64,000 nucleotides of DNA from Thuidium tamariscinum (taxonomy: Eukaryota; Streptophyta; Bryopsida; Hypnales; Thuidiaceae): positions 3,348,001-3,412,000 of the forward strand of contig OX344752.2 in the NCBI GenBank assembly GCA_947034885.2, given 5' to 3'. Shown here piece after piece: positions 2,306 through 52,951 of this stretch. The first letter of the stretch is position 1; each line of letters begins with the position of its first letter. Below the pieces are notes generated by a model. It did no database searches, was not told the origin of the DNA, and worked only from the letters and a program-made list of their open reading frames with translations. The position numbers and the translations under genes were made by a program.

Positions 2306-3334
2306 CCCTTAAAGGAACAAGATGGTGAATTTCATTAAAATGGTGGTATTCTATATGCCATTTTTCAAACCGCATGGTCTAAACTAAAATCTAGCATGAA
2401 GTATAGGTATAGATTTTCAGACATCTAGGACATATAGATTTAAGAAATCTATGATGTATTTAGATTTGAGATTGTGTAATCTACAACATTTTGGAGAGGT
2501 ATAGATTTTAGACATCTATGACACATATAGATTTCAAAATTCTATGATAAATTTAGATTTTAGACAGCGCGATTTGAATTATAAAAAATGTCAAAGTAAT
2601 GGAATATTGCCATTTTAATGCAATTTGCCATCAAATTGCATTTTGGGGCAACATAGCAATTTTGGGCAATTTACTACGGATGGAGTTGTTGTTTTTCTTT
2701 GAAATTTTCACATGTGTGTCCAAAGAATACCTTTAAAGTCCAACAATTTTCATCAATTTTGAGTATATAGTTAAAAAGTTATGCTTGATATGTTATTTTT
2801 TATTATTTGGCAGGCAATCAAGGCAACTCAAAAAACTTCTTTAAGAAATTTTTTTTTAATTAAATTTTGAAATTGATTCTTTAGATTTATATAGATATAA
2901 AAAGCTTTTAAACATTCCATTTGTATTTAGGAGATGAAAGTTATGAGGAATTTTAGTTTGCAGATAGGTATGGAGTCTTTGAAAATCAAACCTACCCACA
3001 AACAAAAATTCCTCATAACTTTCATCCCCTAAATACAAATGGAATGATTAAAATCTTTCTGTGTCTATATAAACCTAAAGAATCAATTTTAATTTTTAAT
3101 TTTTTTTTCAAAATATTTTTTGAGATGCCCCAACTTCCCATTGAGTAATGAAAATGACATATCAAGCAATAACTTTTTAACCATGTACTCAAAAGTTATG
3201 AAAATTGTTGGGCCTTAAAGATACTCTTTGGATATATGTAAAAATTTCAAGGAAAAAAACAAAAACTCCATCCATAGTAAGCTACCTAAAATTGCTATTT
3301 TGCAAAAAAAAATGCAGCTTGGTCCTTTAGGGAG
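2306..3334. mobile_element. Foldback copy of the TTAA-flanked DNA element (copy A)
   Basis: The left end reads TTAACCCTTAAAGG (2302-2315). The right end reads CTTTAGGGAG followed by TGAT where the other copies have TTAA. The interior is a large palindrome: about 2637-2985 is the reverse complement of about 2990-3320, and both arms match the 3' half of the copies at 49225-50161 and 20886-21807. The 5' half has therefore been replaced by an inverted 3' half. A second MITE (2326-2628) is inserted just inside the left end. There is no coding capacity. The ends are seen directly; the element class is inferred. Confidence 0.65.
2326..2628. mobile_element. MITE of the GTCAATTTCATTAAAATGGC family (copy 1), nested
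   Basis: The left end is TGAATTTCATTAAAATGG and continues GTATTC. The right end is GGAATATTGCCATTTTAATG followed by CAATTT, its imperfect inverse. Related copies are at 51797-51999, 57807-57981 and 59279-59458. Inside are repeated variants of 'atctatgA.ata.agattt', an AT-rich degenerate internal repeat. It lies inside the foldback TTAA element and so is younger than that element. Confidence 0.6.
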
Positions 3335-14659: not shown

Positions 14660-15976
14660 TTTAATTTTGTTTGTTTGTTTTGAAGGGGGTGGAGGGGGGT
14701 GAGTTAATCATTTCTTTTGGGTGGGTAGTGAGGCATGCCTCACTATCTACTCAAAAGAGAAGTTACACCTCCAACCTACAAGAAGGAAATTGGCTTGGTA
14801 TCTTTGATACCCAATATAACCCAATCCCTTTTATTGTGTGGGAATCCTTCAACTAAGACATTGGGATTCTCAATTTGCGGTGCCAAGATCTCAACTTACC
14901 CACCCACATAGACAAAGCAATTATTGAACCATTATCAAGGCGCTTAATCTACCTCCCCAACACCAATAACCCTTCCTTGTATACAGGTTGTATTGAGATT
15001 CAAAAAGGTAGGAAGCCATTTCTTGACCTCTTTTTTGTAGGAAGAATCCAAACCCTCACTTATGACCTTGGTAGATGGCATTGGAGCAATGGAACTCCTT
15101 TACTATCATACTCTACAACATGTGGCCGCAAATTACTTACACAACATCATAGGCTTCAATGTTCGGTTCCTTCAAAATGGCCTGGTACACTACCTTTGTC
15201 CTTTAGACCTGATTGGAAAGAAGTTTGGCTTAAAACAAGTTCCCCAAAAGAGGCAGCTTTCATGTGGTCTGTTTGGCACAATGCTATTGCTATTCATTCA
15301 TGGTGAGCTCGCATCAATCCTACTATAGACACGCGATGCAATTGTTGTTCTTTGGGGGTTGAAGAGACACCAATACATAGGTTCTATGATTGCCAATGCG
15401 CTTAAGATGTATGGAAATATGCACAATTCATTCTTCATCATCTTAGTGGAACTCCATCGATATTAGGACCTCGTACCCGCTTCCATGCAACACAATGCAT
15501 CTTTGGCTCTACTCTTCCTCGCAGATTTATGAGGATTAAAACCATTTGGTCCATCCTACGTGGTGCATCATTATGGCTAATCTGGATTGCTAGAAACACT
15601 AAGGTTTTTAGTCACATCCAATGGCCTTTAGACTATATCCACCAAGCTCTTTGGGGAACACTTCTTGATGCAGGCCGTGCTACTTTGATGAAGACCCGCA
15701 AAGCAGTTAAACTTCAGCCTCATCAAGCTCCTTCTCTCTGGGAGAATTTTGACAAATGCTGGCTTCAGTCCCTAGTGTTGGCCACTAGACAGGGTGACCA
15801 AATTTATTGGAGTAGTAAAGGCCCTAGTCTTTGTTTATTTAGTTAGTGCTCTCTTTTGTTTCTCTTTTTTTCTGGTTCTTGGTTCTTTGTCCAGCCGTTT
15901 GGCTTGGCTGGTTTTGTATCTTGGTTCTTTTTAATGTAGTGGGGTCTCCCCATTTGTTAAAAAAGAAGAAGAAGAC
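14660..15976 (+). mobile_element. 5'-truncated LINE (non-LTR retrotransposon)
   Basis: The segment holds the C-terminal reading frame of a LINE ORF2 (14671-15846). A T/G-rich 3' untranslated region follows, containing GGCTTGGCTGGTTTTGTATC and TAGTGGGGTCTCCCC, and ends in AAAAAAGAAGAAGAAG. No endonuclease or reverse transcriptase core is present, so only the 3' end survives. Related strings TTTATTTTGCTATTT (14045-14059) and TTTATTTGCTATTT (15998-16011) lie on either side and could be a diverged target duplication. If so, 14.06-14.66 kb would also belong to the insertion. Confidence 0.75.
14671..15846 (+). pseudogene. LINE ORF2 C-terminal fragment with zf-RVT-like domain
   Basis: One reading frame runs from 14671 to the terminal stop at 15844-15846, broken by TAA (14854-14856), TGA (15304-15306) and TAA (15403-15405) but with no frameshift. 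The product resembles the region after the reverse transcriptase in plant LINE ORF2 proteins. There is a tryptophan-rich segment ending PKEAAFMWSVWHNAI (about 15245-15290). A putative zinc-binding block follows, with Cys-x-Cys-Cys near 15335, then His in TPIHRFYDC and a final Cys pair near 15390-15400. Beyond the last internal stop is a DVWKYA segment typical of zf-RVT domains (PF13966). A basic/aromatic C-terminus follows. The three stops can each be explained by single C-to-T changes (CAA to TAA twice, CGA to TGA once). This is inactive and could only be a relic. Confidence 0.75.
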
Positions 15977-16760: not shown

Positions 16761-16832
16761 ATCTCTTACAGAAAATTTGCTAATAAATAATTTCAAAAAG
16801 CCTAACTTTCTCAAATTCATTTCAAGTCTTAA

Positions 16833-17584
16833 TCCCTAAAGTTTCTTGACTATGTTTTCACTAAAAACGCTCAAAAACGCTCATTTTAAAAATAAGTACC
16901 AAATTTTTGAAAAGAAACTTTTTCTAACTCATGTAACTATAGAATCTTGTATAATGCTAACTTGAAAACATGCCGTAAAAACTTCACACATTTTCACCGT
17001 GTGGATTGAAAGATATAAGCATTCAAATTCACTTAAATCATTCTTTTGGCCCTGCAAAAAATAGGGTAGTTGTACTTTGCAAGCTCACTTTTCTATGAAA
17101 AAATGTCCAAAATGGTGGTGCTTCTTTGGATTCTTTTTCCTAAACAAGTTGTATACATGCTTGAAAATTTTCACATCATTTGGAATTGTAGAATATATAG
17201 GAAAAAAATAGTAAGTAGAGGGTAGTAGAGAATGATTAGAAATACTATATTGTTAAGAATTTAATTATGGAATTGAAAAATGCCAACCCCAATGGTTGCA
17301 ATGTTGTAATAAACAATCTACATTCTATGATTTTTTTTTCAAAAAATATTGATAGAAGTGATTTCTCTGATTTGCCCAAACTGCCCAGTTATAAAAAAAA
17401 GCAACATATAAGGCTATAGCTTTTGACTCTTATTTCCAAATGTCATGAAACTTAGTGCATATGAAAGATATTCCTCGCCCCCACCTTCTACTAAAATTTG
17501 GGCCAAAAACATAGAAATCTCTAGTCACACATATGTGCCCAAAATTTCTATACATCCAAAAAATGCATGTTGGCCTTTTAGGGG
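16833..17584 (+). mobile_element. TTAA-flanked DNA element, copy B
   Basis: Left: TTAA (16829-16832) then TCCCTAAAG. Right: CTTTTAGGGG then TTAA (17585-17588). The interior follows copy D (49225-50161) in the same order: GACTATGTTTTCACTAAAAA, GCAAGATATAAGCATT-like, AATGGTGGTGCTTC, TGGAATTGTAGAATATATAG, CCCAATGGTTGCAATGTTGT. No transposase is encoded. The TTAA plus CCC(C)TA ends are piggyBac-like; the class is inferred from termini only. Confidence 0.75.
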
Positions 17585-20885: not shown

Positions 20886-21807
20886 CCCCTCAAGGACCAA
20901 GGGCTTTAAGTTTTTTGGCAACAAAGGAATTTTGGGCATATATGTTTGACAAGAGATTTTATTATTTACCTATAGAATTTGTATACAACATGTGGATGAT
21001 GAATATCTTTAAGGCCCAACCATTTCAATTACTTTTGACTTCATAGTTAAAAAGTTATTGTATGATGTGTTGTTTCATTCTTAAGTTAGATAACATGAGC
21101 ATATTTTTTGAAATCATTTTTTTTAAGAAAAAAATTTGAAATTTATTTTTTAGATTTATATATATGTGGAAAGATTTTAATCATTTCATTTTGAAATATG
21201 AGTCAAAAGTTATGAAGAATATTTGTTTGTAAGTAGTTATGGATTTTCTATCCTAAATAAACTTTGAAGTCCTTTATTTTAACTAAATTTTCAATGTTTT
21301 GGAAAAAAACCCACCAATATGGGCTGTAGATTTTTTATTATATTACAACACTTGGGTTTGATATTTTTCAATTCCAAAAATAAATTCTTTAGAACTTAGT
21401 ATTTTAAATCATTCTCTACTTCTTTCTAGTTACTTCTCTTCCAATATGTTGTACAATTTAAAATGATTTGAAAATTTTCAAGCATGTAGCCAATTTGATT
21501 CAATGAATGAATCTAGAGAAGTACCAACAATATGGACATTTTTTCATACAAATGTAAGCTTGTGAAGTGCAGTTGCCCATTTTCTTGTAGGGCCAAAAAT
21601 AAGATTTTGATCAATTCAAATGTTAATATCTTAAAATACATACTATAGAAACTTCTAAATTTTTCCTACATCTTTTCAAATCAATGTGCTACAAGATTAA
21701 ATGGTTACATGTGTCAAAAATGTTATTTTTTCTAAAATTTGATATTTCATTAGAAATTGCAATTTGAGAGCGTTTTTGGTTTAAATATAGTCAAAGAACT
21801 TTAGGAG
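20886..21807 (-). mobile_element. TTAA-flanked DNA element, copy C (inverted)
   Basis: Left: TTAA (20882-20885) then CCCCTCAAGG. Right: CTTTAGGAG then TTAA (21808-21811). Read on the minus strand it follows copy D through nearly its whole length. It sits in the 3' flank that the 20.4-kb remnant shares with 38.96-39.4 kb, which acts as an approximate empty site. Confidence 0.72.
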
Positions 21808-21811
21808 TTAA

Positions 21812-27914: not shown

Positions 27915-27922
27915 GTGCTAAC
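27915..27922. repeat. 8-bp target-site duplication, left
   Basis: GTGCTAAC, identical to 36412-36419 across the hAT element. Confidence 0.92.
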
Positions 27923-28089
27923 TAGGGAATTTTTTTTTGGCGAAAAAAAGCCAGATTGCACCCCAAAAAAAACCCTGACGAAACTGCCTGCATGTAACTT
28001 GGTTGGAAAAAGTGGCTTTTTCGCAGATGTGGCGGCTGATGGGGACCACTTTCGGCCAGTTGGCCTCCCATCCCGTCCTCCACTTAGGA

Positions 28090-28310
28090 TTTCTTCGCCA
28101 CTTCCTACATTTACACCCACTCCTTCTCTTGCACTTATCGCTAGTGACTGCAATTTACTCCCACTTTGTTCTTCGGATGCCTGAATTGTTTCGCCATTGA
28201 TTTCTAAATCTTGCGTTCATTTTATCTCCGTGATCGCCAGCTTAGTGGCGTAGTGGTGTGATTATGTCGCCATTACGAATTTTCATTTTTGTAGGATTTC
28301 GCCACCTACT
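28090..28310. repeat. Left subterminal TCGCCA cluster of the hAT element
   Basis: TTCGCCACTT (about 28093), TTCGCCATTG (about 28190), GTCGCCATTA (about 28266) and TTCGCCACCT (about 28300) occur within about 220 bp, with GTGGCG words between them. The matching cluster lies at the right end. hAT transposases typically bind short repeated subterminal motifs, so this is a candidate binding array. Confidence 0.6.
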
Positions 28311-28655
28311 GTGCGAGGGAGTAGCTTGATTTCAACAGGATGAGAGATCGTTATAGGGTGTACGCAATGCTCGGTTGTAATTCCCCCTCTTTGAATTCAA
28401 TTGTCATTCTTTAATTGCTCGCAAGTACTTCAAATGGCGGTGTGGTTCCATCATGGATGTTGTGTTGCTTTGATTTACTTGAAATTTGCTTTCACTGTAT
28501 GTTTTTGCCATGACATCGGTTGTTCTTCTCATTGCGTAATTTTCATTCTAAGTTGTGTGTGTTGCATCAGATTTGTAGTGTGTTGTTTTTTTGCTTTCAT
28601 TCCCATTGTCCATTCTTGAGAGAACTCACCATTGTCCATTCTTGAAAGAGTTGTG

Positions 28656-31600
28656 ATGGAGTCTCCACGTGACGATAGAAGGGAGGATGCAGTTGCGAAA
28701 GCTATTAGGGCTTCTTCTCTTGCACGCAGTGCTCAAAAGAAGGCGGAGAAAGCGGCGAAAGAGGCATTGGAGGTGGCTCGCCGTGAATTGAAACTGAAGG
28801 AGAAAATCATCAACTTGCGCAAGGCCGAAATGAAGAAGAAGACTGTTAATTCGTACTTTCAATCTTCACGAGGCATGGCAGGGGGCAACCGCTTTCTTTT
28901 GTTTTTGATGGTTGCATGCCTGAGGTTCTTGGTACTGAACCCATGTCGGAGGAACAGTATCCTAGCAATAAGGAGGGTGGCCCACTGATCGCACCAAATC
29001 AAAGCATTTCCTTGGCTACGGATACTCATTGCACGCCTGGCTCTTCATTCGGGTCTAGGGATACTATAGTTTTGAGTTGTAAGTCACCGATGATAACAAT
29101 TTCTGAATCCTCCTCCGATAAGGACAATTCACAGTTTGTGGAAGTTCCTATAGAGTTCGAGGGTTCTTCCGACGACTCAGACTTTGAATCTCCTCCCTTG
29201 AAGTAAGCTGGTACAAGTCAAACTAAGTCTTCCAGCTCTCGTTCCAAAGCTTAGAGTCGATATGATCTTCACCGCAAATTTCAAACTATATGGGCTGCGA
29301 AGCTGCCATGGGTGGAGGGCATAATGGGAAACGATGGGATTCTTTACATGGTGAAGTGCAAAGTCTGCAGCGTGATCGACAGAAAGCCTTGTGTGATGGC
29401 ACCAAAGTCTGACACACTTTTTAAGCACGATGGCAAACGTACATTAAAGAAGGACTTACCTCAGTATAAAGTGAAGGCTGGAGAACAATATGTGGCCACT
29501 TAGTGCAAGCATAGGGAAAACATGCGCCTCTATGCTGCAAAGCCTACATCGACAGTGCTTCAACAAATCAATCAGTGCTCTAGCTTGGAGGCACGTAAAA
29601 AGAGGGTACAATTCGCTACATTATTTCAATTGCTTATTGATGGCCGTCTTCTTGCAGAGTTTGAGTCCCGTCAAGCTCTCTACAAGCTTTTGGGTGTCCC
29701 CGACCTTCCTGCTGCACATTGGTGCATTAGTTCCGGCTGGATTATGGCCAAACACATGTACAAATAGGTGGTAGAAGAAACCAAACGCTTAATTGCATTT
29801 CCGAGGTATATAGCTCTCACTGTGGACGAGGTAACTGCGGTTGATAACAACAGCTTTCTTTCAGTCCATGCGTATATTGTGCAAGACTGGGTCCACATTT
29901 CCCTTTTGATCTCTCTTCAGAGGGTTCATTGCTCACCCAACGCGGAAAATATTACGGAATTGATAGTGGGGTCGTTGCATGCTAGTGGGGCCATGGATGT
30001 TGAATCTGTGGCCTCGAAGTTGTTGAGTTTTGGCGCAGACGAGGCCTCCACATTACAAGGAGCACGTACTGGTGTCACTTACCAAATTAAGGAAAAACAT
30101 GCACCCTTCATGATTGGTGTTCATTGTATGGCCCATCGCTATAATTTGGCATTCAAGGCCTTATCTGGGCTTCAAATCTTCTCTGACGTGGAAAAGCTCC
30201 TTTCTGTCACGCACAGCTATTTCTATAAAAGTCTGAAAAGATATTCCGAGTTTAGGCTATTAGCCAAATTGACAAAGACCAAAGGCTTGAAAGTGCTTCG
30301 AAATGTACAAACACGGTGGGTCAGTCTAATTGAGCCCTTGCGCCGCTTACTTTCTAAGTACCGAACGTTGATTTATAAAATGACTGCTGATTTGAATGAC
30401 AACAATAAAGCTGAGGTTCGTTTCTTTTTACTAACTCCTATTCTTGAAAAAAAATTGCTTTATTTTTGTTCTTTTCCTTGACTGAATTATACTATTTACC
30501 TTCTTGATAGATTCAGTTACAATGCTTTATCTTAGTTGCTTCTCATGCTTTGATTTTAGCAATTCTATTTGTGGCTAGCTTTGTCACTATACTAACTAAG
30601 GTGCATGCCTTTCTACAGGTGTGCCTGCAACTCCTCCTTGATCCCTTTACATTGCTCAGGATGTGCGCTCTTCTCCCACTTCTTGAGGCCATTGATACAC
30701 TGGTGCTTTTTGCCCAAAAACGTGACGTGTATGTTTGTGACTTTTTAGCAGCAGTGAAACTATGCCAAGCATCTTTGTACCGAATGTATCAGGACAAGGA
30801 GATGGCCTACAATACTGATGAATTTTGGAGTTTCACAAATCTACTTGACTGTAGTCACAAACAAATCCACATCAAGTGGATTACTAACCATGGTGACGAT
30901 TCAGTTGTGTTGTCTTTTATCTGTCATGGAGAACAGATACATGTGGAGCATAAGGGATCACCGGTGGATAGAGAGGTGTGGGCTACATTACTGGCCAAGG
31001 TCAAATCGGAATGCACTGGTAAGTAAACCTCACCTTCTTTTATCTTCCCACAATGTTTGAAATTCCAAATGTGTGCTTCTGTAATTTCGTTCTGTTTCTA
31101 GTACCTCGATGTTGATGTTTTGCTTTACTTATTTTGGCAGGTGCTGCGGAAGTTCTAGTGGCCGAACTAGATGCCAGATTCCCGGCCCACAACATTATAA
31201 ATGCTTTTGGGATATTCTATCCTCAGTATTGGTGTCAATCAGATGCTGAAGATTCCTTTGATAGCCACTTGCGAACACTTATGGATACTTATGGTCATGA
31301 TAAGATCATAGGTGAAGGTGACAAAAAGATCCTTGTGAAAGCATTGATTGACCGAGAGACCCTCATCTTCCAACGAGCTTTGTTCAAAACGTGCATGAAA
31401 TCTAATGCGTGTGCAGCGATGCTCCCGCCTTTTGATCTGAATCCATTAACAAAAAAATGGCGGGTCCTTCATAGTAATAACAGCCTTACACAAAAAATAT
31501 GTGAATTTGTGAAACTTGCTGAAATGGCAGTGGTTCACGTTCTGGGGTCCGTTGAGGACGAAAGACTCTTCTCCAGTGTCAATTTTCTAAAGTCAAAGTT

Positions 31601-31745
31601 GCGCAATAATCTAGAAGAGCACATTCAGGTAGTGGTGGGAATGTTCTCTTAGAGAATTTTCACACTCGACGACTTTCCCTACCAAAAGGTCTTTGATGAC
31701 TGGTTCGTTGCTGGAGGGTGTGGAAGATATTTAGCTAGTGTTTAG
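28656..31745 (+). pseudogene. hAT transposase pseudogene, three exons
   Basis: Exon 1 runs 28656-30415, exon 2 30619-31018 and exon 3 31141 to 31745. The introns are 203 bp (donor GAG|GTTCGT, acceptor TACAG; phase 0) and 122 bp (donor CTG|GTAAGT, acceptor GGCAG; phase 1). The product would be about 920 residues. Domain order: a Lys/Glu-rich helical N-terminus; an acidic Ser-rich linker; a zinc-finger-like segment with CKVC near 29362 and later His residues; then the RNase-H-like catalytic core. The core shows D1 in TVDEV (29825), D2 in GADEAS (30038), HCMAHRYNLA (about 30122) and RWVSL (about 30314). The hAT dimerisation motif is VEDERLFSSVNFLKSKLRN (about 31551-31607). The order recalls DUF4371/ZNF862-type hATs. 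Disruptions: a frameshift near 28870-28890 and in-frame stops at 29204, 29252, 29501, 29765 and 31650. The true stop may be 31743. Confidence 0.88.
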
Positions 31746-32879
31746 TATAGGCATGACTTGTGTCTCGTAGCCAGGGCAATGGGGTGACACCATCGACAGG
31801 CCTTTGGTAGCTCACTCAATCATTAGGCAGCTGTAATTGGTGCAAAGTAGGTTCATGCACCACTTTTGGTTTTCTCTGCTTTGTGACTTCTTTTCAAAGC
31901 AGACTTCAAATGTGCAGTTGCATCGACCTTGTTTTTCCTTCTTAACTAGTGTTTTTTTATCAATGTGCAGTGTGCAACTAGGTGAATCAATAGGTAGTAA
32001 ATGCAGTTTGGAAAGTTGTATTTGTGAATGTTTGTCTGTTGCTTTGGCCTTGTTTGCTTGTCTGTCCTCCATACTACAGGTAAGGTCTATATCAACCTAT
32101 ATCATTGATTTTCGTTATTTTTTTTTTGGGGAAGATCTTGACTTTGGCATCGAAGCAGGTTTGGGGTAGGCACAAGTGAATGTGGAAGATAGAATCATTC
32201 TCTAACCTGCTACTACTGGAATTAACAATGATTTCTAGTGTTCATTTTATGTTTCCTGGAATTAATAGCAATTTTCTGAAACAACTAACAGTGTTTAACA
32301 GTTGTTTCTAGTGCTCGTAAAAGAGGAAGAGCACCGGAAGGATGGAGATGGGAAGCCCAAGAGTTGATCTAGCTGGCTATCTTGCTGCAACTAACAGCTA
32401 CAAAGGTAAGCCTTCTTTCCATTCCAAAGCTTTTTTTTTTGCCCTAGCTTCGTTGGATTTGGCATCAGTTTGCTCGAAATCTTGTGAGCTAATGACAGTT
32501 CGATTAGGGTGCATTTGGAGAAATTTTAGTTTCGGACCTGAGTTTGTGCATATAGCTTCGAAGTACAAGCTACAACAGAGATCGGGAATCCATGTTGATG
32601 TATCTTCATCTGAAATTTCTCAACATTTTTTTCGGTCAATGAATGGGGTATTTTAGTTCGTCAATTCCTAGGAATTCTTAAGCACCCGATTTGAATTTCT
32701 GTAGATGATTCGTTAGTAAGTGGTGAATTGGGGTAATGTAGTCACCCCTTTTCTTTTGAAATTTTACCAATTGTCTTTTTCAGTGAAAAACTATTAGTTA
32801 ATGTTCAGTTTTGGACCATTGAAAGTAAAAAGATCGACTAATAGTTATAGTTTTTCATTACTGAGTAAATGTTAACTAG

Positions 32880-35510
32880 TAGTTATTAAAACTAATTGTC
32901 TTTGATTGGCTGACCACTAGTCTGCCGGCGGTTCAAGCGGTTTTTCTCTCTCTCTCCCTCGCCGTAGCATATAGTCTTTCAATTTGTTGTTTTCCGCCCC
33001 CACTCTCTCGGTTTTCTCGGTATTCATTTCAGTTTTCAAACAAGTTGTTTTTGTTGTAATGATGAACTCCTTCAATTTTTAATATAAGTATATTTTACAA
33101 GTTGTGTTTGTGTTTGTGTGTCCAGTGATTGGACTTGTTGTTATTTGAGGTGGAGGCTTATTCTAATTGTTTGTTGTGTATCCAGTGATTGGATTTTGAA
33201 GGAGTATATTTTGTGTGATTGTGTTTGATTATTTAACAAGTTGTGAATTACTTGTGTATGTTTGAATTAGTGTGGGATTCTGGTTGTTGTGATTGAACGA
33301 ATTGTCTTGTTGTTTGGATATTGTACCAACCAGTTGTCTTGTGGGTGTTTGTGATTGGAATATTGTGAACCTGGAAAAACCAGTTGTTTATGTGTGCACA
33401 GAATGTGTAGTCAAGTTGTTAATTTACTCGGTGTTTATGTAAAACAATTTGTGCTAATGAGTGATTGTGCTTACTATTTGTTGGCTTCGTTTTGTAAGTA
33501 AAATTCAGTGAGGGAATTACCGTGTCAGGCGAAGTTAAAACAAATTGTGTGTTAAGTCGGTGATGCTTTGGGTGTTATTTTTGTTCTGATTGAACTATTG
33601 GTCGCTGGAGCGCTGGATTGGGTCACGGAGTTGATTAACGAATTGTTGGAGATAGACAAGTTGTGTTGGAGAAGCCGAAGACTTGGTTGCTGTTGAGGCA
33701 AGACGAGACAACAAACTACTGGTCCAACGGTTAAGACTTTGCAGACAGAACGAGTTGTTGGAGATTACCCAAATGAAAGAGGTAAGCAATTCATTACCCA
33801 ATTGTCGTAAGACTATTTCAAAAATCATGGGAATAACAATTGGTTGTTTTTTGAATCTGTGTGTGTGATTTTCTAATTAGTTTTGAAGTCTGCTAAGTAC
33901 AATTTGACAACACTAAATTATTAATTTGATTAATTTACAATTAGTGTTGATTCAATAGTGTTGCACGTATGCATTCACAAACCAGTTGTTGAGATAATAA
34001 ATTCATCCAAAATGGTTGTGATTAACTCTTGGTGAGATTTGTATTGAACGATTAATCAATTTGGAATTACTGGTGGATATACAAATAGTCCAGTGGGGTT
34101 AGCTTTGCCCTAAATACTATTGAAATATCAAACTGGGACAAATTGTAGTTCACAACAGATGTATCAAACCTATTTGTTATGAATGAGATTAATGAGAATA
34201 TTAAAACAAATTGTAATTTGATGGGCTGATACCAATTGATTATTCCTTACGGTTATTTGTTTTGGATCAAATGGATGTTGATAAATCTGATGTATGAATA
34301 AGTTGGGTGTTATTGTGGTTAATTGAAACTAATTGTCTTAGACAGGGTTAATCTATATGCCAAACAATTTGAGTCAGAACATACTTATGTGTGTCGATTG
34401 ATTTGGATGAACTAACTAATTGTTTTGGTTCCTGGTTGTGTGTGTGAGCTGACTTGGAGAATCTGCATCAACAACTGGTCCAATTTATAATTACCTTGTT
34501 TGTTTGGCTGATCCTTGGTGTTTATTTTGTGAATTACAAGTAGTCTGTGTGTGGGGAAATTGTGAGTTAATAAATTATTAAGCATTGGAATTAATCATAG
34601 ACTAATTGTTGTAATGATTTCGAAACCAGTTATATAATATGTAAGTCATTGCGAACCAATTGATCAATTATGGAGATTTTAGATTCACAGCCATAAACGA
34701 ATTGTAAAACTAATGGTTTAGATATTTAAGTTCATAATAACCATTTGTTTTAGTATTTGTGATTTCGAATTAATCATTGTTTCATAATTGCTTAGACTGG
34801 TTTTTGATAGAGTATGGTTGTTGTAAAACAATTAGTAGGACCGAGTAGCTCACTATGCTGGGAGTAACCTGGGAAATTGGACAAATTGTGGGAAGCTATA
34901 TTTGTGATTGATCATTCAGGTTGCCTTACAAACTAATAGTTTTTAATATAATACTTGATAAACCATTTGCGATTAGAAAGGAAATTTGTAAAGAAGTAAT
35001 CAATAGTTGGAATTGTGTGAACAAGTTGTCTTATTAAGATTGCTAGATATGGTTGTTGAGAAGGAAGATTTGGTTTTGGAATGAGATTGTGATTAGAACA
35101 AATTGACTTTAGGCTTGGTGTTTGGTTTTCGGTCTTATCAAGGCTTAGTTCCAACCACTTGTTTGAAATTGGGAATTAGCCAATTAGTAAACTAATCATA
35201 GGATGTTTTAACCAATGGTTGTGAAGTGCAGATAAATAAAGGAGCTTGCATTACACACTCATGCCCTACATTTAGATAGTGACAAATTGTTTTTAGATAG
35301 GACAAGGACTATTTCCTTGAGCATCCTAATTAGTAATTTGGATAGCTAAATAGTGACAGCAACAATTTGTTTGGTAAAAACAATTACCAGTAATTAAAGA
35401 ACCATATGGTTACTCAATTATTGTTATATATATATTTTATATATTTAAATTGCATTTAAGTCTAGATCATGCATGACAAATTGTGGGTCTACACGACTAA
35501 TTGTTTATTA
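32880..35510 (+). repeat. ANTTGT-motif-saturated non-coding stretch inside the hAT element
   Basis: Words such as AACAAGTTGT, AACCAGTTGT, AACAAATTGT, AACTAATTGT and AACGAATTGT recur about every 40-100 bp. By eye there are roughly 35 [A/C/G]ANTTGT hits, mostly on the plus strand. They form no strict tandem period. The stretch starts after a CGGTTCAAGCGG and CTCTCTCTCTC tract (32930-32960). It has no coding frame. A related motif pattern in reverse orientation occurs at 39730-40730. Its function is unknown; it could be a protein-binding array, an inserted element or a decayed satellite. Confidence 0.6.
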
Positions 35511-36139
35511 GGAATTGAGCCACACACTAGTGAAGGACTGTGACTGCATTCATGCGTCCATAGTATTATTAAGGACTGGCCAACAAATTTGTATACTTGG
35601 GAATAAGAATGGATATGAATTGCTTGAAATTGAAGTGTTATTATTGTGTATTTCCTATTCCATTTCTGAATGCAAGTGACTTTAGCCACGATACATTAGA
35701 CTATTTGATCATTCCCCTAGATTTGAACCCCTATACTATAGTCCTGGGTTTTGTGGGATTTAGACAAAACTTAGACTACAGGTAGGCTTGGAGTATTGTT
35801 GTTGTCGTTGTGCTTCAGAGATGTTACATTCTATTTTTGAGCGTGCATTTTCCTTCTCAAGTCTAACATGCTTTCAATTCATCAAGTCTAACAGGATTTC
35901 TGAATTTCGTCACTGCTTTGAATTGATGACTCTCTTGCCTAGCTCTTGGCTTAACTGAAACGCGAGCTTCAACCCCAATGTCTACATATTCTTTTATCTA
36001 ATTTATTTGGTAAAGAATGTTTCTCATTTTGGCATCAGAGGGGGTTTGGATTGGGCGCAGGTGATAGTTCATGTATCTCAAATGTAAGAGTTGGTAAGCA
36101 CAGGCAAATCACTCAAAAAACCCGCATATAGGCTAAAAA

Positions 36140-36375
36140 TTTTGCCAATCGCAAGACACCTTAGTGTTTCAGTTTGCCAAAACAACAACCGAAGCAAGCA
36201 CCCAATCGCCAAAAACAACCTACCCTTGATATAGAATTCGCCATAAATAACATACACTTGCAAATAAATTCGCCATATACTACTTCTTGAAATTATCCTC
36301 ATCGCCACACTAAAACTACCTAAGGTAATAAAACTATTGCCAATTCCACTTGCAGCACATAAGACATGTCGCCTT
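36140..36375. repeat. Right subterminal TCGCCA cluster of the hAT element
   Basis: ATCGCAAG (36148), ATCGCCAAAA (36207), TTCGCCATAA (36238), TTCGCCATAT (36270), ATCGCCACAC (36301) and GTCGCCTTTT (36368) mirror the left cluster in word and, unusually, in orientation. Confidence 0.6.
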
Positions 36376-36411
36376 TTCATTCATTCGTAAAAACTGGAAA
36401 AAAATGCCCTG

Positions 36412-36419
36412 GTGCTAAC
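36412..36419. repeat. 8-bp target-site duplication, right
   Basis: GTGCTAAC, identical to 27915-27922. Confidence 0.92.
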
Positions 36420-49115: not shown

Positions 49116-49224
49116 AATAACCTATTTACATAAAATGATGTTTCAAGAACTAAATCTAGGATAAAGTAGATTCAAATCATTTATAAAATTTTCCTTCAAT
49201 GCATGAAATGCATCCATGCTTTAA

Positions 49225-50161
49225 CCCCTAAAGGTTTTTGACTACGATTTCACCAAAAATGCTCCAAAACTGCCATTTGTAATACAAGTGAATTAAAAAT
49301 TTTTTTTTGACTCATGTAACCGTAGGATCTTGTAGTAAGGTGGTTTGTAAACATGTGGAGAAAATTCCAGAATTTTCCATCGTGTAGATTGCAAGATATA
49401 AGCATTTGAATTGACAAAAATTGTTTTTTTATCCCTGCAAAAATCTGGGCAGCTGCACTTCACAAGGTCACATTTGTATGAAAAAAAATTCAAAATGGTG
49501 GTTCCTCTTTGAATTCATACTTCAATGCAAGTTGGATACATTTTCAAAAATTTCAAACCATTTGGAATTGTACAACATATAGGAAAAAATAAGTAAGTAG
49601 AAAGAAGTAAAAAATGAGCCAAAATACTAAATTGTGAACATTTTATTCATGGAATTGAAAATTTTCAATCCCAATGGTTAAAATGTTGTAATAAACAATC
49701 TACACCTTTTGTTTTTATTTTTTTCCAAAAATATGAAAAATTGAATTAAATGAAGAATTTCAAACTTTTTTTGTACTGTAGAGATTCTGTAACTGGCCCT
49801 AAACTGCCCCAAATTCAAAATCTTCATAACTTTTGACTCATTGATTGGAATGGATTGATTCAAAGCTTCCCATGTCTGTATAAATCTAAAGAACCAATTT
49901 GAAATTTCACTTTCTAAGAAAATTTTTTTTTGAAGAAGTTTTTTCAGCTGCCCGGTGTGCCCGCCGAGTAGAGAAAACAACATATCCTGCCATAACTTTT
50001 TAACTGTGAAGTCAAAAGTTATGAAAATTGTCGGGTCTTAAAGCTACTCCTTGGGCACACATTGTATTAAAAGGTCAAAGAAAAAAAAAGAAAAATTCCA
50101 TCCGTAGTAAGCTGCCCAAAAAAATTATAATCTCAAAAAACACTGTTCAGGGCTTTAGGGG
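49225..50161 (+). mobile_element. TTAA-flanked DNA element, copy D (best preserved)
   Basis: TTAA (49221-49224) is followed by CCCCTAAAGGTTTTTGACTA. The right end is GGGCTTTAGGGG then TTAA (50162-50165). Length is 937 bp. The inner words are shared with copies B, C, A and E/F. No reading frame suits a transposase. The TTAA target and CCCCTAAAG/CTTTAGGGG ends resemble piggyBac elements, in which TTAA is duplicated and ends start CCC. No internal protein is available to confirm this. Confidence 0.75.
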
Positions 50162-50439
50162 TTAACTCATGCGGGCTTCTATATTTTGCAAAGTGACCTT
50201 TTCCTAGTAATTACAGCTAAAAGTATTCCATTGTACAATTACACATTGTCCCTATTTGTGAAATTGCCAATTTCTTATTGGATCTTGTAAAAGTCAATAG
50301 AATACTTTAGCTAGAATCACTAAAATACATTATTTAGACAATGTATAAATAAATTATGAATTTCCACAATGCTAAAAACTAGTGTTCCTACAAGAATATT
50401 GTACATATTAGATAGAAATTTGAAGGGGGGTGCATAAAA

Positions 50440-50965: not shown

Positions 50966-51796
50966 CAACTTGAAATTATCTTATATTCTTTGAGATTCAT
51001 GATAGACAATGCATCACTCTATAAGAGTAGCTTCTTCACCCTTCTTCCTCATCAATTACCAATGAAAAAAGTCTTTTACAATTTACATTCTCACATGTCA
51101 ACAAAAATTCTTAATGACAATATTGAAAACATACTTCATTGACATCTGCTTTATATTCCACAACTTGGATAGAGCTCAAATAACATCTAAGTTTAAAGTT
51201 TTCAAGACCCTAAAAAATTGCATCACAATACTATAATTTTGATTATTGAACACTTAAACTTGGATTTCTAGTTGTTGAGAGTCTACAAATTGATGGAAGG
51301 TGAGTGAGAATAGGGGAAAAGGACCTTTGCTAACCCCTAAAGCCTTGAGTTGCATTTTTTTGGCAACATAGCAATTTTGGGCAACAAACTATGAATAAAG
51401 TTTTTGTTTTTTTTCTTTGAAATTTTCACACAAGATGTGCCCAAGGAATAGCTTCAAGACTTCAGAGCCCAACAATTTTCAAGACTTTTGGCTTTGTGGT
51501 TAAAAAGTTATGGCATGATATGTGATTCTTTTTGTTTAGTAGGCAGTCTGGGCAACTAAAAAAACTTCTTTAAAAAAAACTTTTTTTTAAAAGTGAAATT
51601 TGAAATTGATTCTTTAGGTTTATACAAACATGGGAAGCTTTGAATCATTCCATTTGGATTAAGGAGATGAAAGTTATGAGGAATTTTAGTTTGCAGGTAG
51701 GTATGGTTTTCAGGATTGTGGAGTAGCCCTCTCCACTTTACAATCTACAAGCTTCACATTTTCTCTAATGTTTTCTTGATGGCATTTTGAATGTAT

Positions 51797-51999: not shown

Positions 52000-52951
52000 T
52001 ATGTGAACCCGTAGATAAAAGTTGCACTTTATGATGCCTTCATCTAGAAGTTGCATATGTAATTGCACAATGATTTGGGTGCCCTAGCTATCGCAAGGGT
52101 GGTGCAATAATATAATTTGTAGTCATTCTTCACTGAAACTGGAGTACCGGACATCCAATCATTCTTTGCAATCATTTTTATCCTTTTTTTTGTAGTGCAA
52201 AGAATGATTCAAAATACTAAATTGTAAACAATTTATTTATGGAAATGAAAAATGCCAATCCCATTGTCCCAATGGTTGTAATATTGTAATAAAAAATCTT
52301 TACCCAAAGTAAGTTTTAATTTTTTTCAAAAAAACTAAAAATCAAATCAAATAAAGGATTTCAAACTTTTTTTTGTAGAGTAGAGATTCTATAACTACGT
52401 ACCCGCAAACTACCCCAAACTAACACTCTTGATAACTTTCATCTCATTAATGAAATGGAATGATTCAAAGCTTTACACATAGATATACATTTAATAAACC
52501 AATGTCAAATTCCTATTTTTTTTCAAAGTAATTAGTAAAGAAGTTTTTATAGTTGCCCCAGCTACTCACTTCAGCAATGAAATTTACATATTATGCCATA
52601 ACTTTTTAACTAATGTAGTTAAAAGTTATGAAAATTGTTGAACCTTAAAAATACTCCTTGGGAAAATGTTGTGTGAAAATTTCAAAGAAGTAAAAGAAAA
52701 TCTCCATTTGTAATGAGCTGCTCGAAGTCACTATTTTGCCAAAAATCACAGTTTAGGGCTTTTGGGGTCAGGGCAAGCAAGAATATAACCCACCAGTTTT
52801 TCTTTGCCCTGGTTGCTGGGGGTTCCGAACTTTATTCTCCCTGGTTCGGTGGTTCCATGAACCTATCTATTAAAGTTATTAAAAATTGATCAGGAAAGTT
52901 TGGTTTAAGAAAAAAAAAATCAGGGAAAAAAAACTTATTAAAAAAACTTAT

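Follow-up and report, generated by a model that had tools for sequence, protein, structure and literature searches.

The interval from 27915 to 36419 of the Thuidium tamariscinum DNA stretch analyzed here (the window, 64,000 nucleotides of contig OX344752.2), which an earlier note had described as one unusually long hAT transposon of 8.5 kb, is a composite. A hAT-type element entered the target site GTGCTAAC, and a 3044-bp unit of another family later inserted at GGTAG in its 3′ region. Judged by its sequence, the nested unit is most likely the solo long terminal repeat (LTR) of a Gypsy-like retrotransposon. It carries 57 sites of a palindrome-like motif, which we read as a selected array of putative binding sites in the U3 part of the LTR. 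The full reading, with composite, solo LTR and selected array taken together, we consider fairly probable. The "giant hAT" is spurious and the claim reduces to an ordinary small family plus a nested insertion. The features of the interval are listed below with window coordinates, strand where one applies, and basis.

27915-27922: left 8-bp target-site duplication GTGCTAAC (octamer match, shuffles)
27923-27936, + strand: left terminal inverted repeat TAGGGAATTTTTTT; the sister copies start CAGGGCATTTTT (end comparison with sisters)
27938-28304: left subterminal TCGCCA cluster, six words, five on + and one on - (word count in window)
28656-31745, + strand: broken transposase gene, frame change at about 28885, stops at 29204, 29252, 29501, 29765 and 31650, inferred introns 30416-30618 and 31019-31140
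31746-32501, + strand: 3′ part of the hAT-type element, common to both sisters (alignment with sisters)
32502-32718: 217-bp extra piece, absent from both sisters, unclassified (alignment with sisters)
32732-32736: left 5-bp duplication GGTAA of the nested unit; intact site in the sisters GGGGTAGGCTT (sister junctions)
32737-35780, + strand: nested non-coding unit of 3044 bp, TGTAGTC...GACTACA, most likely a solo LTR (genome search, sister alignment)
32762-35508: array of 57 sites, consensus AACNANTTGTT, 45 on + and 12 on -, mean spacing 49 bp (matrix search)
35425-35450, + strand: TATA-rich stretch near the array end, with two sites after it, about 330 bp before the unit end (kept in all 11 aligned copies)
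35781-35785: right 5-bp duplication GGTAG of the nested unit (sister junctions)
35781-36411, + strand: 3′ terminal part of the hAT-type element, about 430 bp of the sisters missing at 35879-35902 (alignment with sisters)
36206-36307, + strand: right subterminal TCGCCA cluster, four words in 32-bp steps (word count and repeat scan)
36398-36411, - strand: right terminal inverted repeat, inward reading CAGGGCATTTTTTT (end comparison with sisters)
36412-36419: right 8-bp target-site duplication GTGCTAAC (octamer match, shuffles)

The source genome of the window (363 Mb) was searched with the terminal 200 bp of each end of the interval. The left end found three other places; two are good matches, at 93% and 89%, and the third is weak, at 80% over 60 bp. 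The right end found three places, which were the window copy and the two good left-end loci, L047 (C4) and L048 (C1). Both of these relatives have both ends present, and they are flanked by their own perfect 8-bp duplications, GTATAGAT and GTATAGAC. The duplications are therefore perfect and mutually different in three of three copies. This is the pattern by which the earlier note had proposed that a family could be recognized, and the three-locus hAT-type family is real, ordinary and small.

Both sisters lack nearly all of window positions 32502-35780: they align up to 32501 and resume at 35781, with 10 bp between. The sister junction reads GTTCAGTGAGTTGGGGTAGGCTT, where the uninterrupted site GGGGTAGGCTT has a single GGTAG. 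In the window the same junction consists of GTTC, 217 extra bases, AGTGGTGAATTGGGGTAA, TGTAGTC...GACTACA and GGTAGGCTT. Comparison of the two junctions places the nested unit at 32737-35780, with GGTAA/GGTAG as its 5-bp duplication (four of five positions alike). The sister bodies measure 5678 bp (L047) and 7646 bp (L048), and the hAT-type element of the window minus its inserts is about 5.2 kb long. The ends and the perfect 8-bp duplication would fit a single 8.5-kb hAT whose long 3′ non-coding region is its own, but this reading is refuted by what the sisters lack and by the nested unit itself, which has its own ends and duplication and recurs at 38 other genome places (best 40 of 165 candidates), none of them a sister locus. 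We regard it as practically untenable, and the unusual length inferred earlier disappears with it. The 4.7 kb of non-coding DNA that the earlier note placed behind the gene is correctly described, but most of it is foreign to the element. The same genome search and sister copies rule out the 57-site array as a part of the hAT-type element and assign it to the nested unit.

Three smaller differences among the copies were seen. About 430 bp common to L047 and L048 are missing in the window copy between 35879 and 35902. L048 has about 2 kb of extra DNA between its matches to window positions 28337 and 29584, a further nested insertion or a replacement. The 217-bp piece at 32502-32718 starts GATTAGGGTGCATTTGG and had no match among the compared loci except the window's own.

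The outer boundaries are exactly those that had been fixed earlier from the TAGGG and CCCTG ends and the perfect duplication. The GTGCTAAC octamers at 27915-27922 and 36412-36419 bracket a body of 8489 bp (27923-36411), of which the left end, TAGGGAATTTTTTT, and the right end, CAGGGCATTTTTTT as reverse complement, are alike at 12 of 14 positions. The octamer by itself is unremarkable, with 2 occurrences in the window against 1.13 ± 0.99 in shuffles; it is the combination that is above chance. The window has one YAGGG...CCCTR pair at most 20 kb apart with a perfect 8-bp duplication, where 100 first-order resamplings average 0.06. Relaxed to YARNG...CNYTR, the pattern yields 9 pairs, close to the 8.16 obtained by chance, and among these an inverted repeat of at least 11/14 is found just in the GTGCTAAC-flanked pair (0.01 by chance). 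Both sisters have CAGGG...CCCTG termini, so that the first base is C in L047 and L048 and T in the window copy. Of the 14 TCGCCA words in the window, 10 are inside the element, with six in its first 400 bp and four in its last 210 bp; TCGCC(A) clusters lie near both ends of L047 and L048 also, and thus in all three copies. The 8-bp duplications, whose second base is T and seventh base A, the CAGGG-type ends and the short subterminal repeats are features shared with the hAT superfamily (Ac/Ds, hobo, Tam3, Hermes).

The protein-coding gene of the element lies on the + strand at 28656-31745 and has two GT-AG introns inferred from sequence. As claimed before, it is broken while the ends are kept: the gene contains a frame change near 28885 and five in-frame stops ahead of the final stop. 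At the sister locus L006 a single frame stays open for 626 codons across the first exon. Transposase relatives from the same genome could be aligned over the first exon (alignment A1, 10 rows) and the last exon (A2, 12 rows). In order, the alignments show a start with many charged residues and alanines, a stretch rich in Cys and His, TVDEVTAVDN, SFGADGASTLQG and GVHCVAHRCNLA, followed in the last exon by LGSVEDERLFSS. We take TVDEVTAVDN, SFGADGASTLQG, GVHCVAHRCNLA and LGSVEDERLFSS to be the D, D, CxxH and E stretches of hAT transposases, an assignment made by eye with no library support. The hAT assignment of the gene rests on the ends, the duplications and these motifs. At least 150 genome places (best 150 of 804 candidates) encode relatives of one 217-residue piece, the window copy included, and the others are 91% to 41% identical to it. 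A single-sequence structure model of 29768-30418 had a mean pLDDT (predicted local distance difference test score) of 39.8 and was unusable. Scans of viral contigs and of genome contigs for transposase relatives gave no confirmed match. Rfam gave no match.

Eleven other copies of the nested unit were fetched, and all match from its first base. The ten with both ends are 2.9-3.1 kb long (4.0 kb in L037, which has an insertion), start TGTAGTC and end GACTACA. Their 5-bp duplications are mutually different, nine being perfect and one 4/5. The 3′ end of the eleventh copy, L045, is outside the locus, and this copy was omitted from the alignment. Further units were read at L063 (duplication 4/5), at C3:40300978-40305776 (perfect, ends TGTAGTC and GACGACA) and at C5:20924486-20933250 (perfect). 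In total, both ends were read in 13 other units, all of which start with TG and end with CA; 11 have perfect duplications and two have 4/5. The TATA-rich stretch is present in all 11 aligned copies (window plus ten). The longest open frame is 90-173 residues across these copies, so that there is no long gene. The TG...CA ends, the TGTNR-type start, the 5-bp duplications and the TATA-rich stretch led us to the solo LTR assignment, Gypsy-like by its ends.

A matrix search seeded with ACNANTTGT converged on the 57 sites between 32762 and 35508, and their consensus is the imperfect palindrome AACNANTTGTT. Matrix sites of at least 8 bits number 57 in this 3.2-kb stretch and 68 in the rest of the window, which is 19 times longer. 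The motif is also the top gapped word of the array, with 48 matches against a maximum of 18 in 200 resamplings subjected to an equivalent de novo count. The array motif leads in one of 23 equally long window segments; other words lead in the remaining 22 (5 to 32 matches, all those above 12 being A/T-only). The word ACNANTNGT occurs 44 times in the 3044 bp of the window unit (14.5 per kb) against 0.29 per kb in 224 kb of other loci, a background that includes L057, which overlaps the array. The site spacing averages 48.75 bp with a coefficient of variation (CV) of 0.46, against 0.96 for random placement; with a 7-bp exclusion the random CV was 0.83 and never fell below 0.53 in 5000 placements. 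Helical phasing of the sites gave no peak.

To compare the sites with the DNA between them we used the alignment of eleven unit copies, one of them that of the window. When this one is set aside, identity per 100-bp bin is 91-97% in the first 600 and last 640 bp and 74-90% in the centre. In these ten copies the motif letters are 94.4% identical, against 84.5% for the spacers and 83.0% for the two free motif positions. In the fast-changing centre the values are 92.9% for motif letters and 79.8% for spacers. When the window copy was included, the observed motif conservation exceeded that of all 2746 circular shifts applied to the sites, and the excess holds for each base separately. Per copy, ACNANTNGT is kept at the same columns in 36-45 of the 57 sites. 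Private differences at conserved end columns amount to 1.4-2.6% in 10 of the 11 copies and to 8% in L043. Since they are so few in most copies, most of the central difference appears to be older than the insertions and to have arisen in active lineages. The distant copy L063 has a centre that is 39-69% identical. It holds 36 copies of ACNANTNGT where 1.3 are expected and 500 resamplings never gave more than 6, and of 44 window sites 22 recur in the same column, suggesting that sites are lost and gained at a steady high density.

These data bear on whether the array is the functionless remnant of an ancient tandem repeat. In favour of this, tandem duplication is the usual origin of arrays made of similar words, and the site density is above chance. 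However, Tandem Repeats Finder at a score of at least 40 detected no period in 32762-35418. The flank similarity of the sites is 0.275, against 0.280 ± 0.004 at random places; because the flanks are no more alike than random places, the array is not a recognizable tandem repeat. Furthermore, the motif letters change more slowly than the spacers, and L063 has kept its array despite a largely changed centre. We therefore consider a tandem-repeat remnant quite improbable.

Several results weigh against the reading of the interval as a hAT-type element with a nested Gypsy-like solo LTR and a selected array. No hAT match in Pfam-A was obtained with the window pieces, the read-through, eight frames of six relative loci or the 12 members of A2. 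In this respect the element differs from the hAT superfamily; other loci of the same genome do match PF05699 (Dimer_Tnp_hAT). At least 150 such matches were found (best 150 of 714 candidates), many in open frames of more than 1000 codons with identical scores, and these loci apparently form a different hAT group that multiplied recently. Against Protein Data Bank sequences, one transposase sequence and the A1 profile had no match, and the A2 profile returned just serine palmitoyltransferases (E 0.6-0.7) and no hAT protein. As to the array, a 17-bp exclusion lowers the mean random CV to 0.63 with a minimum of 0.42, so that simple exclusion could account for part of the evenness of spacing, and the picking of the sites in the window copy causes some selection bias in the conservation measured there. 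As to the LTR, no same-strand partner within 20 kb was found for the best 40 of 66 5′-end candidates or the best 40 of 221 3′-end candidates, where a lower-scoring partner could be missed. A complete retrotransposon with two LTRs, primer site and gag-pol was not among the scored places. In a rice family whose LTRs measure 3.2 kb there are 2.6 solo LTRs for every complete element according to the passages of PMC3485330 that deal with it; at that ratio about 11 of 40 units would be expected to be complete. A search for the unit end followed by a primer site of the initiator methionine tRNA (tRNA-iMet) type gave two pattern matches, each of which lies in unrelated coding-like DNA; no primer site of another type was sought.

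Candidates for a complete element were followed up and rejected. A 3′-end pattern had 120 matches, of which 100 were listed, and 34 in a reversed control, so that they are partly due to chance. Among those listed, the only same-strand pair within 20 kb is C3:40286551 and C3:40300978. The span C3:40286551-40305776 is not one retrotransposon, since the outer unit, whose end is at 40300978, is flanked by a CCCAT duplication of its own. The 8.8-kb span C5:20924486-20933250 is one unit with the duplication AGATG that is interrupted by another element. Its sampled middle (20927250-20930450) has no unit match except one 24-base piece at chance level, and the samples flanking it match unit positions 842-1113 and 1407-1809. 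The middle encodes a DDE_Tnp_4 protein (E 4e-30) and, on the opposite strand, a Myb/SANT-like protein (E 1e-6; L068 and L070, C5:20927250-20929899). Such a frame pair occurs in PIF/Harbinger elements. We read the middle as another DNA transposon nested in a unit copy. A repeat pair at 32097-32179 and 35982-36064 (65% over 84 bp, E 0.03) was also considered for LTRs or primer sites; it is weak, and both members lie in hAT DNA outside the nested unit.

The solitary state of every scored end, together with the dismissal of the C3 pair and the C5 span, could also mean that the nested unit is no LTR. It would instead be a stand-alone mobile element that is non-coding, has TG...CA ends and a 7-bp inverted repeat, makes 5-bp duplications and depends for its movement on the integrase-like transposase of another element. 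The copies are fairly young by their private differences, and complete parents of an LTR might therefore be expected to survive. The TGTAG start agrees with TGTNR, the end of Gypsy LTRs, which Ginger elements share (PMC2836005, in the portion on these ends). The same portion of PMC2836005 gives Ginger terminal inverted repeats of 40-270 bp or 50-180 bp, and the 7 bp of the nested unit fall well short of the lower limit of 40 bp. In addition, the TATA-rich stretch and the size suit an LTR, and a high ratio of solo to complete LTRs is reported for Physcomitrella in passages of PMC7251063, which makes a solo-only family possible. On balance a stand-alone element seems possible to us, though unlikely. 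The solo LTR assignment resembles what passages of PMC3485330 describe for rice Retrosat2, a Gypsy element with LTRs of more than 3 kb: an LTR of about 3 kb, TG...CA ends with a short inverted repeat, a TATA box and many solo LTRs. In those passages Retrosat2 has its TATA box close to the LTR 5′ end and an R region of 2 kb. The TATA-rich stretch of the nested unit, by contrast, is close to the 3′ end. A comparable site array is absent from the passages on Retrosat2 in PMC3485330, and the unit described here differs further in that no complete element was found.

For the solo LTR with a selected array the following mechanism may be envisaged. A Gypsy-like retrotransposon would have lost its interior when its two LTRs recombined, and the solo LTR would have stayed behind, whose long U3 would consist of about 57 palindrome-like sites running up to a TATA box. 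A dimeric DNA-binding protein, either of the host or of the retrotransposon, would occupy many sites together, and this joint occupancy would drive transcription from the TATA box and keep silencing out. Selection would then act on having many moderately spaced sites and not on the intervening DNA, so that sites are kept while spacers turn over. A dimeric protein with some binding orientation is suggested by the palindrome-like site with its asymmetric seventh position, control of the LTR promoter by an array that fills the presumed U3 up to the TATA-rich stretch, and occupancy on the kilobase scale, as needed against nucleosomes or silencing, by the dozens of sites. Repeated transcription-factor sites in or near an LTR are found in the U3 activator repeats of Tnt1, Tto1 and ONSEN and in the Su(Hw) sites of Drosophila gypsy. 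Those arrays have between a handful and roughly a dozen sites; the nested unit has about fifty. A keyword search of open-access literature, judged by titles and abstract openings, found no such array in hAT or LTR elements, which does not by itself show its absence from print.

The nearest published analogue is the VANDAL system of Arabidopsis, in which VANC21 goes with the motif YAGTATTAY (PMC5735166, as far as its passages on this motif go). The likeness lies in a 9-bp motif repeated in the non-coding DNA of a mobile element amid fast-changing surroundings (the relevant parts of PMC5735166 and PMC10398659). By this analogy the array could be a sequence-specific anti-silencing target bound by a protein of a missing autonomous relative, since here too a short motif has amassed in non-coding DNA that otherwise changes rapidly. 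On the other hand, VANDAL motifs often lie within tandem repeats in the passages of PMC5735166 concerned, while the array flanks here are unrelated, and the unit has no long gene. We hold this explanation to be doubtful. Compared with the VANDAL system as described there, the present array has another motif, belongs to another element class, lacks recognizable tandem repeats and has a binder that is only putative. A broader version, which we put forward tentatively and with low confidence, leaves the class of the unit aside. The unit would be a mobile non-coding DNA, either a stand-alone element or an LTR family that persists in the absence of complete copies. Selection in it would act mainly on some fifty palindrome-like, putative protein-binding sites at a mean spacing of about 49 bp, with the site number roughly kept and the DNA between the sites free to change. 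Such a unit may act as a sequence-specific anti-silencing or insulating platform, an independent counterpart of VANDAL in another element class. Under either version the array is the useful part, as it offers one motif in many copies with a built-in selection test of sites against spacers, and it makes testable whether mobile elements besides VANDALs use dense site arrays against silencing.

Elsewhere in the window, related repeat pieces that are 69-81% identical occur in both orientations at 2636-3332, 16829-17349, 20983-21811, 49221-50164, 51331-51712 and 52199-52768. An open frame at 14857-15303 has a weak zf-RVT match (E 0.1, below the Pfam cut-off) and is possibly a remnant of a non-LTR retrotransposon. 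The GC-richer region at 5-8 kb of the window contains the repeat pairs 7095-7257/4892-5042 and 5975-6230/7293-7548, which are inverted and direct, with 74% and 85% identity.

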